Source: Deltaproteobacteria bacterium
GTDB taxonomy: Bacteria; Myxococcota; XYA12-FULL-58-9; JABJBS01
DNA: 36,102 bases
Reading direction: 5' to 3'
NCBI GenBank assembly: GCA_018668695.1
Contig: JABJBS010000059.1
Coordinates: 1 to 36,102, forward strand
In this document: positions 29,421-35,663 of the stretch, piece by piece
Numbering within the stretch: the first letter of the stretch is position 1
Layout: each line of letters opens with the position of its first letter
The notes under the pieces: generated by a model
The model's database searches: none
What the model was told of the DNA's origin: nothing
Seen by the model: only the letters and a program-made list of their open reading frames with translations
Position numbers and translations under genes: made by a program

Positions 29421-29580
29421 AGTCTTGGAATCCCGATGGAAGTTAAAAACCGATTACTGATACTGATTCGTAGCAAAAGAGTGGCTAAGGGTCCATTTAA
29501 CGGCCTTAAAGAAAAATTCAGCATTAAATGGCGCAAATTTTTAAGATCAATAAACCTTGGACTATAAACAAGTACTGATT

Positions 29581-31986
29581 ATGACTGAAGAGAGCTTTTT
29601 TTATAAAACCAGGCTAACTGCCGTGGCGTTTTGCACAATATCAGTGCTTTGCGGTTCTGCGTCGGCAAGCAATAGTCCTGACTTGATTCAGCAAATACTG
29701 AACCCCAAGGAATCTGAGCTCAAAATCGAAACAGCGGAAGACAAAGGTCCGCTGAGTATCGAAGAAATCATCAATCCGCCCATTTTCTCGGCATCCAACA
29801 CCCGAGAGAATGCGCTCACTGCACCAGCCTGGGTTATCATCATTACCGGCGAAGAGATGCGAGAGCGCGGTTATATTGAGCTTTCTCAAATCTTCGATGA
29901 CTTACCTGGAATTGATGTCTCGCGGCCATTCGGAGCCACTTGGTTTCGCCCCTATTGGCGAGGGCGACGCAGCGGCTCCTGGGGCGATAACTTTTTATTC
30001 ATGATCGACAACATCCCGTGGCACGACCATATTTACGACAATGCACGGATGATGGTTCCCATATCCTATATTGACCGAGTCGAAATTGTTTACGGGCCAG
30101 GGTCCTTGATTCACGGTAGCAATGCCATGATGGGCTCGATCAACGTGGTCACCAAGGGTGAGAGCAAGCAGCTTGGAACACAATTCGCGGTTGTCAGCGG
30201 TATTCATGCCCCGCAGTCTATGATCGACCAGGCCAATAAAATCCGTTACCTCACCGACTTTAGCATTCTTCATAAAAGTGATGATTTTAGGTTGAGCGTC
30301 ACGGGACGACTCGAGCAAGGACACGTCGATGAAGTCATTGGAGACTTCAGCGAGTACGAATACGGTTCCACTCGGTCTGAGCACTATGGTGACAAGGACC
30401 TCTGGGGACCTACTCTAATCGAGAAGTACCCAAACCTTAGCGGTGAGTTTCGCTCTCCCTTTCGAGATATGAGCCTTGATATTCGGCTGATGACAGATGA
30501 GGCCGAAGTTGGTTTCCAATACTTTGACTTCAAGCGAGGCACCGGTTCGCAGTATGCGGCCGACCGCTTCCAAAACCAGTCTATTTGGCACGATACCTTC
30601 TATGGGGCACATGTACGCTACACCAAAACCTTCGACCGACTTCAGTCACAATTCCTCGCACGGTTTCGAGCAAGCGTTTGGCCGGAAGATAATACACTGC
30701 TGCTCTTGAGTGGAAATCCAGTCACAAACACCAGCCCCGGCACCGTCAAGCTCAACCATTATGAGGCCTCCAATCACGGCATCGAAATCAATGAGTTTCT
30801 AAAGTACCAGATTCCAAAAGTCTTCGGGAATGACGAGCTGACTCTCATTGGCGGAGTCAATTACGCTTACAACGAAGTGGTGCAAGGCTGGACATCGTAT
30901 ACCGGTATTTTTCAAGACACTGACGCTGGAACCAATAACCCAGAGGCTGGAACCCTGGAAACCGAGAGTGGACAAGTTGGTGTGGATGAACTCCCTCCTG
31001 CCAACAAGCTGGGTCTACACCGTATTGCGGGCTACCTGATGGCCAAATACACTTTCTTAGATGACCATCATCTCGACCTCGGAATCAGAGAGACCTTTAC
31101 CCGGAACAATTTCTATACGTCTTTTAGAACTGCTTATGTACTCTCATTTTGGGATCGCTTCACCTTTAAAGCAATGCTCGGCCGCGCCTTTAAAATACCA
31201 TCGCAGCGACAAACTTATGGCTTTAATACGGCGTCTCTCAATCAAGAGGATACCGAAATACGGGTTGAAACATCGACCACTTATGAGCTGAGCTTGAACT
31301 ACAATTCGGACAATATAAATATTCAGCTAAGCCCCTACTTTGTAGAAAACAAGAACATTTACTCCATAGATTTTGCGAACAAATCTACTGATTTTTACGC
31401 CGCTGAAATCCTAGGGGTGGATCTGGCTGCGATTGCATCCATACCGGTTCCCCAAATGAAGCAATTGAAACTCTGGACCTATGTGACTTGGTACCCTCTA
31501 ACCCGCCGAGCACCTTACTCCAGCGCATGCAATGAGAAGAGCCGAGCCGATTACATCTCAAACGGCGTGATGGGTCACAACTTAACGAATCGTGAATGCT
31601 GGATTGGTGATATCGCGAACCTACAAATCAAAGGCGGAATTACCGCCAAACCCATCAATCGTCTCGTGGTCACAGCCCTTGCTCGCTACGTCAACAAACG
31701 CGTCACTGTAAGTTCAAATTCAATTGCAAAAATAGACCCTTACGTCACATTGGACGCCAGCGTGATGGTCAAAAACATTGGTCTTCACGGCCTGAATATG
31801 AGCTTAACCGTAACCAACCTCACGGATGCCCGTTATTTTCACCCAGGTATCGGTGCGGCAAACTCTGGAGACATTGAAGGTCTCTTCGAAGCCGGTGCCG
31901 ACAAAGGCAGCGCCGGCGGTCTAAACTCGCTTTTACCGCAACCAGGACGCGCCTTTCAGTTGCTCATCTCCACAGAATTAGACTAA
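29581..31986 (+). CDS. TonB-dependent outer-membrane receptor
   Basis: This 801-residue protein has a signal peptide with an AxA-type cleavage site after Ala29 (GSASA), so the ATG at 29581 is preferred to a TTG eight codons upstream. The plug domain follows: PAWVIIITGEEMRERGYIEL, FDDLPGIDVSRP, VEIVYGPGSLIHGSNAMMGS and INVVTKG, which are the standard TonB-receptor plug motifs. The remainder is a beta-barrel with alternating strands. It ends LLISTELD rather than the usual terminal aromatic residue, which is a mild oddity. A loop with two Cys (near CNEKSRADYISN and NRECW) is present. The substrate cannot be told. No TonB/ExbB is nearby. It is 26 bases upstream of the transporter fusion gene and likely co-transcribed. 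Confidence 0.9.
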   Translation: MTEESFFYKTRLTAVAFCTISVLCGSASASNSPDLIQQILNPKESELKIETAEDKGPLSIEEIINPPIFSASNTRENALTAPAWVIIITGEEMRERGYIELSQIFDDLPGIDVSRPFGATWFRPYWRGRRSGSWGDNFLFMIDNIPWHDHIYDNARMMVPISYIDRVEIVYGPGSLIHGSNAMMGSINVVTKGESKQLGTQFAVVSGIHAPQSMIDQANKIRYLTDFSILHKSDDFRLSVTGRLEQGHVDEVIGDFSEYEYGSTRSEHYGDKDLWGPTLIEKYPNLSGEFRSPFRDMSLDIRLMTDEAEVGFQYFDFKRGTGSQYAADRFQNQSIWHDTFYGAHVRYTKTFDRLQSQFLARFRASVWPEDNTLLLLSGNPVTNTSPGTVKLNHYEASNHGIEINEFLKYQIPKVFGNDELTLIGGVNYAYNEVVQGWTSYTGIFQDTDAGTNNPEAGTLETESGQVGVDELPPANKLGLHRIAGYLMAKYTFLDDHHLDLGIRETFTRNNFYTSFRTAYVLSFWDRFTFKAMLGRAFKIPSQRQTYGFNTASLNQEDTEIRVETSTTYELSLNYNSDNINIQLSPYFVENKNIYSIDFANKSTDFYAAEILGVDLAAIASIPVPQMKQLKLWTYVTWYPLTRRAPYSSACNEKSRADYISNGVMGHNLTNRECWIGDIANLQIKGGITAKPINRLVVTALARYVNKRVTVSSNSIAKIDPYVTLDASVMVKNIGLHGLNMSLTVTNLTDARYFHPGIGAANSGDIEGLFEAGADKGSAGGLNSLLPQPGRAFQLLISTELD

Positions 31987-32012
31987 ACGGTTGATTCAAC
32001 CCGCCAAAGCTT

Positions 32013-35000
32013 ATGGCTTCGGCTGAGAAGATGGCCGATACGATGTTGCCAGATACCACCGAAAAATTAAGTCAGCTGCTCGGTGTTGAATCGAACGAAC
32101 GCAAACTTGTTAGCCGAGTCTTTATTCAAGCCTTACTCATCGGTCTTCAAAACTTATTCACGCGAACTGCTGTGTTTGCGATATTTCTAGAAACTCTCTC
32201 CGCATCAGAGCTGCCAACTATCTACATCGTCGCAGGCTTGATTCTTCCTATCTTCGGAACAACCTTTTCACGTTACGCCAAAACACACAGCTCCCTCAAA
32301 GCTTACCGGCTCTCACTTGCCCTCACGATTTGTATGCTGGTGGGCATGCGTTTTTCTTTAGACGTTTTAGAAAGCAGCTATCTAAGCATCGTAGCGCTCC
32401 CCATTTTTTACCTCATTACATTCAGACTGCTCTCCATGTCTCTTTGGGGTACCGCCAACGCTGTCTTTACGTTAAGGCAGAGTAAACGACTTTATGGCTT
32501 GATCACGGCCGGCGATAAATTCACGACTCTCATTGCAGGCCTTTTGGTTCCAAGCCTACTGCCCATCATCGGTACCGAAAACTTACTTTTTCTATCCATC
32601 GTCACGATGATTTCAGCCTTCTTCAATCAGTCTCAAATTTTGAAGGCGGGGAGCATTCAAGAAGAAGAAGAGGAAGAAAAAAGAGCGGAACAAGCCGCCG
32701 TCTCGGCTGGGTTATCTGAAGACGAAGAGTCTACCTATAAACGCTACATGAAGCTTGTTCTCGCACTTCAAGCCGCCATATCTGCTCTCTACTTTTCAAT
32801 CGACAATGCTTTTCTAACTGAAGTTCACAGCAACTTTCTCACGGCCGAGGCATTGGCAAGCTTTCTAAGCTATACATCCGCCGCCACCGCTCTTGGCTCC
32901 ATTATTCTGGGCGCAATCAGTGCTCGAACCATTGTTGAGCGGTTCGGAACCATTAGCATGCTCCAGATCACACCCATCGTGGTCGTGGTACTGGCAATCC
33001 TAGGCGCAAGCACCGCAGCTTTGCTCCCAGCTACCATTTGGATTTTGGCCATTTTGACTGTGATGCGAGTTGCCGAACGGTGCCTTACGCCCACTGTATT
33101 CAATCCAAGCTTTCATTCCCTCTTTCACCCGTTGCCTAAAGAGCTGGGATCAAAAGCCCACAACTATTCCATCACCATTGCCGGGCCGCTTGCTGGAGCC
33201 GGAGTGGGTCTTTTGCTGCTTGCGCTCAAGAGCATCACCACTCCAACCACCGCACTCTTTTGTACGTTGATTTTTGTCTCCGGCATCACAATGATTGTCA
33301 TCTGCCGCCAAACCGGTCTTCTCTACCCCAAGGTTCTTACCTTCGCGGTCGGCTCACGGCGGATGCACAATATTGAATTGGGTTTAAATGATAAGCACAG
33401 CCTGCAATTGCTCGAGGCAGGGCTTTCATCACAGCGGGCTGAAGAGGTTATCTACAGTTTAGATTTACTCCTCAAACTCAGGCCTGAACGCTTAAGACCT
33501 CTTTACCCAGAATTGCTCCAACACCCACAATCACTTGTTAGGCGTCATGCCATCGAGAGCATTGCCCAAGACCTTAAAGAAGAGTCCACGGACCAGCTCG
33601 TCGAAGTTCTCGCCAATGAGGTCTCCCCTGCAGTGAAGGCCACGGTCTTAAAAGCCATTGCCGAATCTAACCCAGAGCGCAGCCACGATATCCTGACTCC
33701 TTTTTTGCAGGTCAGCCATTCCCGTCTTCTCTTAACGGCCCTGACCTCGCTCATCAAACACGGGGGGCTTCGCTCTATTATTGCAGCTGGTACTCGGCTC
33801 CAAGCTCTCGAACGCTCCGAGACACCTTCTGAACGTGCACTCGCGGCTCAAGCTATTGGAGAGATTGAGAACCCTTCATTTTATCATGGCCTGGAAGATT
33901 TACTAAACGACGAACACCTCCTTGTCCGCCAAACAGCACTCGAAGCCGCCGGTCAGCTCGCAGCACCTCAGTTGCTAGGAGCCACCCTCAACGCACTCTC
34001 AGAACCTCAACTTGAAGCGATTGCCCTTCAATCGTTAAGTGAATCTGGTGAATCCTCCATCGATGCTCTCTGGGAAGCCTACGGCGACGACGACCAGTCT
34101 TTTCGAATTCGCCGCCATATCCTGGTTTTGCTGGGTAAGATGAAGAGTGAGATAAGTTCAAACCTACTCTTTGAACATCTTGAAAACAGTGACCCAGAGC
34201 TTGAAGAAGAGCTGCTTTACGCTCTCCATGACGCGGACTTCAAGGCCAACTCTGTTCATTTCAATCAAATCGAAGCACGCATCAACCTTGAAGGAAAGCG
34301 CGCCATCACTTTGCTTCAAGCACTCACCGCCTACGCGGATGCAACAATGCAGGGTGCTATCCACCTGCGGGAAACACTTCAGCACGAATTTGAAAAGGTC
34401 ATTCAGCGGATGCTTTTGCTGGCATGCTTCTTTGCCCCCAACCTACCTTTTCGGCGCATGTACGCCAGTATTTACCTGGGCCAAACCAAAGACATCGCAT
34501 TCTACTGCGAGCTGGTTGAGCAAAGCTTACCGGGGCATATCGCAAAACGCCTTGTTCCACTGATTGAACCTCTTGACCAAGCGACCCGAGTTCAGAAGCT
34601 TGCAAACATCTACAACGAGGAGCTCTCGGAACCCCTTAACGACCTCATGTTGATGGCAAACGGGCAATTTGCCAGTCGCTCAGCTTGGCTTGCGGTATGT
34701 GCAGGATGGTTTTTCGACGAACTCACGCGCTCTGGCAGTGTCGATACGGGAACCCACTCACTCAAGAACATCTACCTTGAGCGTAAGGTACAACGGCTTC
34801 AAAACATCGATATATTCTCCCGTTGCTCTAAAGCGATGCTGGCAGAAGCACTCAACTGCTTCGAGATTAGAGAAGTTAAGGAGGGTGATGTCGTTGTTAC
34901 CAAAGGACTCCCACAAAACTCCCTCTACGTTGTCGAAACCGGTGCTTTAAAAAGTACGGAAGAACACTTTCGCGAAGGTCAGTGTTTTGGAGACGAAGCG

Positions 35001-35663
35001 CTCGTTGGCGCAGAACTCGTGCACGAGACCACTCACGCCGAAACCGACAGTCACATCATGGTATTGAGCCGAGAAGATTTTAGTCTGCTTCTGCAATACA
35101 ACTTACCCCTCTATTTATCGGTCCTTGAAGGCCTTTTGCTGCAAATAATCAGTGCCCTGACCAAGCGCGAAGAAAAAATCTCTCCCACCCCTTCTGCCAA
35201 TAAGCAAAATGATTCACGGGATCTCAACAGTCTTATCGAACAAGAACTCTTGGTGAAAAGCTGTGCGCTTTTCGAAAAATTAGACCGCACAGCCCTTCAG
35301 CAGCTTTTGATAAGCGCTCAGATTATCACACTCGAACCCGGAGAATCTTTGTACCAACAAGGTGAACCAAGCCAGCATCTTTATATCGTAGGTTCTGGGG
35401 ACATCACTCTTCATAGCGACGAGACAGTTCGGCTCTACCTTGAACGCGGCGCAAGCTTTGGCAAATATTCGTACCTTAGCGCTGGCGGTGCATTGCCTAC
35501 CAACGCTCGCACGGAGCAAGGTGCAGTCGTTTTGCAAATTGACGGGGGTTCCATCGACTCCATGATTTGGGCCAGTCGCGAACAAATTGAAATGACGATT
35601 GGATATCTTTCAAGCGCTCAAAGAGCCCTGAGCCCGAAACTTCAGGAATTTACCTGGTTTTAA
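32013..35663 (+). CDS. 12-TM transporter (MFS / nucleotide-carrier-like) fused to HEAT repeats and two cyclic-nucleotide-binding-like domains
   Basis: This 1,216-residue protein has three parts. Residues 33-440 hold about 12 hydrophobic helices with a charged central loop (QEEEEEEKRAEQ, 216-227), the layout of an MFS or ATP/ADP-translocase-like carrier. Residues 460-800 are alpha-helical HEAT-like repeats (VRRHAIESIAQDLKEESTDQ, VRQTALEAAGQLAAPQLLG). Residues about 935-1055 and 1085-1195 are two cNMP-binding-like domains: EGDVVVTKGLPQNSLYVVETG with FREGQCFGDEAL, then PGESLYQQGEPSQHLYIVGSG with ERGASFGKYS. The phosphate-binding-cassette arginine is not clear in either copy, so ligand binding may be lost. 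Similar transporter-HEAT-cNMP fusions are known as poorly characterised bacterial proteins. The short gap suggests an operon with the receptor. The substrate is unknown. Confidence 0.8.
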   Translation: MASAEKMADTMLPDTTEKLSQLLGVESNERKLVSRVFIQALLIGLQNLFTRTAVFAIFLETLSASELPTIYIVAGLILPIFGTTFSRYAKTHSSLKAYRLSLALTICMLVGMRFSLDVLESSYLSIVALPIFYLITFRLLSMSLWGTANAVFTLRQSKRLYGLITAGDKFTTLIAGLLVPSLLPIIGTENLLFLSIVTMISAFFNQSQILKAGSIQEEEEEEKRAEQAAVSAGLSEDEESTYKRYMKLVLALQAAISALYFSIDNAFLTEVHSNFLTAEALASFLSYTSAATALGSIILGAISARTIVERFGTISMLQITPIVVVVLAILGASTAALLPATIWILAILTVMRVAERCLTPTVFNPSFHSLFHPLPKELGSKAHNYSITIAGPLAGAGVGLLLLALKSITTPTTALFCTLIFVSGITMIVICRQTGLLYPKVLTFAVGSRRMHNIELGLNDKHSLQLLEAGLSSQRAEEVIYSLDLLLKLRPERLRPLYPELLQHPQSLVRRHAIESIAQDLKEESTDQLVEVLANEVSPAVKATVLKAIAESNPERSHDILTPFLQVSHSRLLLTALTSLIKHGGLRSIIAAGTRLQALERSETPSERALAAQAIGEIENPSFYHGLEDLLNDEHLLVRQTALEAAGQLAAPQLLGATLNALSEPQLEAIALQSLSESGESSIDALWEAYGDDDQSFRIRRHILVLLGKMKSEISSNLLFEHLENSDPELEEELLYALHDADFKANSVHFNQIEARINLEGKRAITLLQALTAYADATMQGAIHLRETLQHEFEKVIQRMLLLACFFAPNLPFRRMYASIYLGQTKDIAFYCELVEQSLPGHIAKRLVPLIEPLDQATRVQKLANIYNEELSEPLNDLMLMANGQFASRSAWLAVCAGWFFDELTRSGSVDTGTHSLKNIYLERKVQRLQNIDIFSRCSKAMLAEALNCFEIREVKEGDVVVTKGLPQNSLYVVETGALKSTEEHFREGQCFGDEALVGAELVHETTHAETDSHIMVLSREDFSLLLQYNLPLYLSVLEGLLLQIISALTKREEKISPTPSANKQNDSRDLNSLIEQELLVKSCALFEKLDRTALQQLLISAQIITLEPGESLYQQGEPSQHLYIVGSGDITLHSDETVRLYLERGASFGKYSYLSAGGALPTNARTEQGAVVLQIDGGSIDSMIWASREQIEMTIGYLSSAQRALSPKLQEFTWF

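Follow-up and report, generated by a model that had tools for sequence, protein, structure and literature searches.

The closest described relatives of the protein studied here are the NTT-HEAT and NTT-HEAT-cNBD proteins of bacteria, in which a membrane domain of the nucleotide transporter (NTT) type is fused to HEAT repeats and, in some cases, to a cyclic-nucleotide-binding domain (cNBD). They were described by Major, Embley and Williams in 2017 (PMC5381601, cited here and below from part of its text), who reported that NTT-HEAT fusions occur widely among bacteria, the Deltaproteobacteria being one of the fused lineages, that stand-alone cNBD genes are located just downstream of some NTT-HEAT genes, and that the cNBD is doubled in oomycetes and Bacilli. 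The function of the fusions was given as unknown and they were discussed mainly as carriers of ATP or nucleotides. In this work we analyzed a stretch of 36,102 nucleotides (the window), the whole of contig C59 (JABJBS010000059.1) of the draft genome of a Deltaproteobacteria bacterium of the phylum Myxococcota (GCA_018668695.1; 5.87 Mb in 424 contigs). It includes the gene for an NTT-HEAT-cNBD-cNBD fusion, here called the carrier, preceded by the gene for a TonB-dependent receptor. The carrier shares the domain order of the described family and, since NTT-HEAT-cNBD fusions, some of them with a doubled cNBD, were already known in 2017, its architecture is not new. Unlike that family as described in PMC5381601, the window protein has two degenerate cNBD cassettes and a receptor gene directly upstream. 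Literature searches on TonB, HEAT, cNBD and NTT listed no paper joining TonB receptors with NTT-HEAT proteins; the term 'NTT-HEAT' itself occurred in two papers, and the word count for PMC5381601 gave no 'tonb'.

The reading that we favor, to which we assign a probability of about 0.45, is that the receptor and the carrier form one functional unit for a shared ligand other than ATP, with a cytosolic arm that would dock proteins. The TonB-dependent receptor would pass a small ligand through the outer membrane; at the inner membrane, the NTT-fold domain would move or sense that same ligand, probably not by exchange of ATP for ADP. The HEAT solenoid and the two cNBD folds, both probably blind to ligand, would together make up an arm in the cytosol whose protein contacts dock or control the carrier. 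In this scheme we infer co-transcription, the shared ligand, the direction of import and the role of the arm. The features of the window are as follows:

29557..31986, + strand: TonB-dependent receptor gene, 809 residues, Plug domain at E 5.5e-13
31987..32012, + strand: intergenic gap between receptor and carrier, 26 bases, with a small palindrome at 31989-32001 and no + strand T-run
32013..35663, + strand: NTT-HEAT-cNBD-cNBD fusion gene (the carrier), 1216 residues, ATG start
32091..33350, + strand: NTT/TLC membrane domain, like those of the major facilitator superfamily (MFS), about residues 27-446
33390..34727, + strand: HEAT solenoid, about residues 460-905; block means of the predicted local distance difference test (pLDDT) of 64-85 over residues 631-870, lower elsewhere
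34773..35105, + strand: degenerate cNBD 1, residues 921-1031, cassette FGDEALVGAELVHETT, Glu changed to Asp (conservative) and Arg to Val
35205..35603, + strand: degenerate cNBD 2, residues 1065-1197, cassette FGKYSYLSAGGALPTNAR, Glu changed to Lys and Arg to Leu (Thr with another gap placement)

The first-pass annotation of this DNA had placed the carrier 26 bases after the receptor gene, and this was confirmed: the ATG of the carrier is found 26 bases past the end of the receptor gene, both on the + strand. The palindrome in the gap is perfect (31989-32001, GGTTG-ATT-CAACC), and the terminator scan listed no + strand site within these 26 bases. The genome includes 10 Plug loci in 5.87 Mb and two NTT genes. 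Assuming about 5,000 genes, we estimated at about 0.2% the chance that a receptor is located directly upstream, on the same strand, of either NTT.

The two window proteins were searched separately against 72,556 plasmids, and both led to the Runella rosea plasmid NZ_CP030852.1, which was the sole carrier match and the top of 59 receptor matches. There, the receptor, GNAT and carrier genes are consecutive in a same-strand gene run that also encodes an nSTAND1-WD40 protein, a STAS protein, an anti-sigma-like ATPase, a Y_Y_Y/Reg_prop histidine kinase and SpoIIE; another kinase is among the surrounding genes. According to the taxonomy of the plasmid record Runella belongs to the order Cytophagales. 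The operon was found at these loci (L numbers are the locus designations of this analysis):

L084 3559-17617; also L136, L137, L141, L143, L144, L180 and L182: Cytophagales-type operon, in the order nSTAND1-WD40 / TonB receptor / GNAT-like / NTT-HEAT / Y_Y_Y histidine kinase

The domains were verified in L084, L136 and L180 only; other copies of the operon again include nSTAND1-WD40 and Y_Y_Y proteins. The receptor-carrier order in Cytophagales is analogous to that of the window pair: in both, a TonB receptor gene is upstream of an NTT-HEAT gene on the same strand. The carriers also have in common a worn C-terminal cNBD-like region, since those of the operons match the cNBD profile when taken as a group (hhalign probability 92%, E 5.5e-7). 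The co-occurrence of the two genes is therefore not confined to the window, and because of it the idea of a receptor-carrier pair survives. As a separate observation, the Runella GNAT protein gave a sub-threshold match to the model of the N-acyl amino acid synthase FeeM, a hint of a signal molecule. The Runella operon also occurs, nearly identical, in a record titled as an Alphaproteobacteria metagenome-assembled genome (L085), which is probably a mislabelled or contaminated bin.

The window carrier was matched in 117 of 291 Cytophagales genomes at E <= 1e-8. A receptor was found beside the carrier in five of 40 fetched Cytophagales regions, which were chosen and not random, and also in the Runella loci L084, L085, L087, L088 and L089; L086 starts just before the carrier and is uninformative. 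In each of 15 Cytophagales genomes chosen for having a carrier of the operon kind, the best genome-wide match of the window receptor (E 9e-22 to 3e-26) was the receptor located about 3 to 4 kb upstream of that carrier on the same strand, and the next match in any of these genomes was no better than 2e-7. For nine of the 15, the presence of the receptor was known or strongly expected at the time of choice, and the coordinates of G364 are those of the Runella rosea plasmid; the other six (G355, G335, G471, G323, G441 and G456) were picked by carrier size alone, with the neighborhood unseen. Five genomes picked for other carriers gave best receptor matches of E 2e-8 to 9e-15.

The carrier itself had been proposed to combine a 12-helix carrier, a HEAT solenoid and two cNMP-like domains in one chain, an arrangement borne out by Pfam-A. 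TLC (PF03219) was found at residues 139-330 with a marginal score (22.4 bits against a cut-off of 21), together with HEAT_2 (77.2 bits, three stretches) and cNMP_binding (74.9 bits, two stretches), and the presence of all three in one chain, the cNBDs at the C-terminus, assigns the protein to the NTT-HEAT-cNBD family. The NCBIfam model TIGR00769 (NTP/NDP exchange transporter) gave a weak match to residues 139-397 (20.3 bits against a cut-off of 387.2). Hydropathy analysis showed a hydrophobic zone, almost without a break, between about residues 31 and 446 and four further isolated segments in the HEAT or cNBD regions. AlphaFold2 placed about 12 long helices in this zone at pLDDT 25-43; the multi-helix character of the carrier stands, and the models are consistent with a count of 12. 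The prediction, made for residues 1-912 with four Runella relatives, had a mean pLDDT of 46 with only about residues 631-870 consistently above 60, and that of residues 905-1216 as a single sequence gave 35; as structures these models are too poor to use.

The carrier is divergent, being at most 28% identical to its relatives among the matches listed. It was the only one of 86 NTT proteins scanned with a doubled cNBD, in a scan whose search model contained, and thereby favored, the two domains of the window protein. In its own phylum, 147 of 195 genomes, its own included, match the carrier at E <= 1e-10, and in 11 of 40 regions fetched from these the carrier is followed on the same strand by a cNBD open reading frame of 137-173 residues, its distance ranging from an overlap to about 2 kb. 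Tandem NTT-HEAT genes are found at L064, L065 and L070, one family of this phylum, and the latter two also have a canonical stand-alone cNBD gene about 2 kb further downstream. The genome of the window has a second, ordinary NTT-HEAT gene (L041, 965 residues, no cNBD) between genes labeled by eye as RNase-like and ruvB/lpxC-like.

A profile of five own-phylum NTT-HEAT membrane domains found the solved ATP/ADP carriers 9j3n (ADP,ATP carrier protein 1) and 9j3j (AtNTT1) with E values of 4.6e-18 and 8e-25, and the window carrier aligns with the other NTT-HEAT proteins along a homologous multi-helix TLC domain. In AtNTT1, the residues K155, E245, E385 and K527 matter for transport, and K155 and K527 mutants lost ADP or ATP binding (PMC3306366, PMC10654386, both cited from part of their text), although some nucleotide carriers vary at these charged sites (PMC10654386). 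The AtNTT1 sites were mapped through the profile alignment to 9j3n/9j3j with a chain-to-native offset of 84, deduced from the fact that all four AtNTT1 letters then agree. The corresponding positions in the window are:

32223..32225, + strand: Tyr71, at the AtNTT1 Lys155 position (ADP site)
32412..32414, + strand: Leu134, at the AtNTT1 Glu245 position
32802..32804, + strand: Asp264, at the AtNTT1 Glu385 position, a conservative change
33195..33197, + strand: Gly395, at the AtNTT1 Lys527 position (ATP site)

The comparison with ATP/ADP translocases suggested in the first-pass annotation thus confirmed the homology of the membrane domain and, in contrast to the translocases, revealed Tyr, Leu and Gly in place of K155, E245 and K527, in addition to the cytosolic HEAT-cNBD arm. 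Only the acidic Asp264 is kept of the four charges. The lysines are lacking in the whole set of 84 NTT-HEAT sequences, window included, none of which has Lys at position 527 or at position 155, where 78 have Tyr and one has a gap. At position 245, Glu or Asp was found in 38 of 38 own-phylum rows and in none of the 46 others (one gap); position 385 is acidic in 83 of the 84. Classical ATP/ADP exchange by the window carrier is unlikely, since K155, E245 and K527 are replaced and Lys is gone from both sites in all 84 sequences. This mapping depends on alignments at about 20% identity. Because such alignments may be out of register, and because the sites differ in some nucleotide carriers, the result lowers the probability of nucleotide transport rather than removing it.

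The key residues of the phosphate-binding cassette of cNBDs are a Glu and an Arg. Both window domains match the cNBD fold by sequence profile (PF00027, 74.9 bits over two stretches), and neither keeps the two residues, whereas among the cNBDs detected in relatives 45 of 56 do, namely all 8 that stand alone and 37 of the 48 that are fused. Arg alone is kept in 51 of the 56; in one clade, five domains have lost both residues and have Gly or Ser, and His, instead. The control for reading the cassettes was a pair of canonical cNBDs from another protein of the same genome (L042 6458-8533), a membrane-type protein of 691 residues encoded about 24 kb from the genome's other NTT-HEAT gene. For cNBD 1, a pairwise alignment with MlotiK1 also puts Val at the arginine position. 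For cNBD 2, the cassette is beyond the end of the alignments shown with solved structures and was placed with a one-residue insertion; if the gap is set differently the residue is Thr, and there is an Arg a few positions further on, which makes this column uncertain. With that reservation, the claim that the phosphate-binding arginines are not evident holds in the cassette comparison. Gating by an internal regulator had also been proposed. A HEAT-cNBD arm acting as a scaffold is plausible for this role, and a cyclic-nucleotide sensor less so because both cassettes are degenerate; gating by cyclic nucleotides is unlikely on these grounds.

Turning to the receptor, a later ATG at 29584 begins a sequence that reads like a signal peptide and is the likelier start. 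Beyond the Plug domain the protein aligns with a paralog from its own genome (L040, 41% identity) and with the Runella receptor, so that a C-terminal barrel region follows the Plug, and the Pfam barrel model gave no match to it up to E 1. The gene of the paralog (L040 4675-7698) has an N-terminal acidic-repeat extension that is cut by the contig end, and near it are genes labeled by eye as ATP-grasp, ABC1-like kinase and sensor kinase. Among 195 genomes of its phylum the window receptor matches its own genome only (E <= 1e-20), and 17 matches were obtained in a sample of 395 Bacteroidota genomes (E <= 1e-15). Its nearest kin outside its own genome, among the genomes searched, are in Bacteroidota, where L177 (304 bits) and L178 (201 bits) are better relatives than the operon receptors.

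A number of results weigh against a single functional unit, and several of them come from the relatives of the receptor. In the receptor tree, the window sequence joins its paralog L040, L177, L178 and L043 (support 96/92), with 14 operon-type receptors as the sister clade (100/100); one clade of window and operon receptors was rejected (p 2e-45; 1.5e-5 with L040 added). No NTT gene was found beside L040, L177, L178 or L043 in the stretches examined, those of L040 and L178 being near contig ends. An NTT is beside 12 of the 14 operon-type receptors and not beside L179 and L181; for L179, an NTT match was obtained elsewhere in the genome, on another contig. In the 40 Myxococcota NTT-HEAT regions fetched, which were picked from carrier matches and have flanks often of about 6 kb and some shorter, no receptor adjoins the carrier, and none adjoins the paralog L041; a single weak receptor match (E 1e-4) was found in L060, about 4.4 kb from the carrier. 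The pair in the window also differs from its Cytophagales counterpart: the receptor is 25% identical to that of Runella over 800 aligned columns and falls in a different clade, the carrier is 24% identical over 446 aligned columns, the GNAT-like gene that separates receptor and carrier in Cytophagales is lacking, and the surrounding regulators were not seen. Taken singly, two of nine operon-carrier C-termini match the cNBD model (best E 0.0048), and the L141 carrier reading frame stops short of the cNBD-like region. A receptor next to the carrier is seen in Cytophagales and in none of the fetched Myxococcota regions, and the idea of a receptor-carrier pair is weakened by these regions, by the unlinked receptor kin and by the separate receptor clade.

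The carrier trees bear on the same question. Both were unrooted. The first included 84 rows, without L076, whose start is inside another frame, and without the duplicate L086; for the second, 23 rows were dropped (near-duplicates, long branches) and L180 and L182 were added. The carriers of L046, L055, L068, L075 and L078 are in neither tree and were covered by the survey of Myxococcota regions. Its own phylum is represented by 38 rows in the first tree and 32 in the second, and in both the window carrier falls outside them, with a support of 99 in the Shimodaira-Hasegawa-like approximate likelihood ratio test (SH-aLRT). The rows nearest to it by path are from Bacteroidota and the highest identity (23-24%) is to its own phylum, and its motif NPSFHSLFHPLP resembles the Bacteroidota form. 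Further points against the unit are that the window carrier is on a very long branch (2.9 and 3.3), that in the first tree it is likewise separate from the 45 Bacteroidota rows (81), its placement against them not being settled in the second, and that its best score, 222 bits, is to an own-phylum NTT-HEAT (L012, the same gene as in L064) and not to an operon carrier, with 210 bits to a Cytophagales NTT-HEAT without a receptor in the stretch examined. A clade of window and operon carriers was neither shown nor rejected (p 0.26 and p 0.078 in the two trees). An alignment of 14 relatives proved too divergent. The searches covered the own phylum, Bacteroidota, the plasmid collection and two named-genome scans. 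The 395 Bacteroidota genomes yielded 17 carrier matches at E <= 1e-20, with a top score of 126 bits and no relative closer than those already found; the named-genome scan with the window carrier gave no match, and that with the Runella carrier gave five loci, all Runella-like. The adjacency in Cytophagales thus runs through a sister clade of receptors, with the tie between the carriers unsettled by the trees, and because long branches mislead we claim no shared descent for the receptor-carrier pair. The window pair may have been inherited, rebuilt or brought together by coincidence.

The alternative that best withstands these data is such a coincidence, namely a stand-alone NTT-HEAT-cNBD protein behind an unrelated receptor, with the Cytophagales arrangement having arisen separately. 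It is favored by the closest kin of the receptor, which are not linked to an NTT and which the tree parts from the operon receptors, and by the paralog L041 and the 40 own-phylum regions without an adjoining receptor. However, the low chance expectation and the same gene order in another phylum count against it, and we regard it as unlikely while still giving it serious weight. A second alternative is a sensor instead of a transporter, in which the NTT fold would be a ligand-binding transceptor, the receptor would deliver the ligand and the HEAT-cNBD arm would relay the signal. The company of the Runella pair (histidine kinases, SpoIIE, STAS, the anti-sigma-like ATPase and nSTAND1-WD40) and its partial recurrence in other copies would suit a sensor, as would the replacement of the essential NTT residues and the long branch of the window carrier. 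However, no kinase or similar regulator was seen among the immediate neighbors of the window pair, where the contig stops just downstream, and this alternative appears rather improbable. Uptake of ATP or other nucleotides adjusted by binding of cyclic AMP (cAMP) to the cNBDs, after the suggestion of Major et al. (PMC5381601), is unlikely: the carrier is homologous to NTTs, Asp264 is retained and the Glu to Asp change of cNBD 1 is conservative and found in four relatives that keep Arg, but neither cassette keeps Arg, the 84 NTT-HEAT proteins (one gap) have no Lys at 155 or 527, and the window protein has lost E245 as well.

Upstream of the receptor, a type VI secretion cluster occupies positions 9216-29420 on the - strand, with VipA/VipB, VasE (TssK), TssF, DotU, IcmF and ClpV-like genes; it also encloses genes for an IglE-like lipoprotein, a DUF4280 protein and an AMP-binding enzyme. 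The cluster is on the opposite strand, and no evidence points to a functional tie with the receptor or carrier. A defense system was rejected, PADLOC having given weak matches only, to the HEAT and cNBD parts. Downstream of the carrier, a small opposite-strand gene with sub-threshold LIM/C1 matches precedes the contig end. The G+C content over the receptor and carrier genes (0.485-0.499, blocks from 30001 on) is in line with the rest of the window and therefore gives no sign of recent import.

Beyond the functional unit that we favor for the window pair, a broader proposal is that Bacteroidota and, once, this Myxococcota-type genome share a conserved two-membrane module, in which a TonB receptor works with an NTT-fold protein that abandoned nucleotide exchange and the HEAT-cNBD arm, no longer bound by cyclic nucleotides, is a protein-docking transducer. 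We consider it unlikely in this full form. If true, such a module would couple outer-membrane uptake to cytoplasmic signaling. The Cytophagales operon supplies partners (the receptor, the GNAT protein and the histidine kinase) that make the question of function testable, including on the Runella plasmid. For the NTT-HEAT family, the lack of Lys at both nucleotide-contacting sites in 84 sequences suggests that the substrate needs rethinking.

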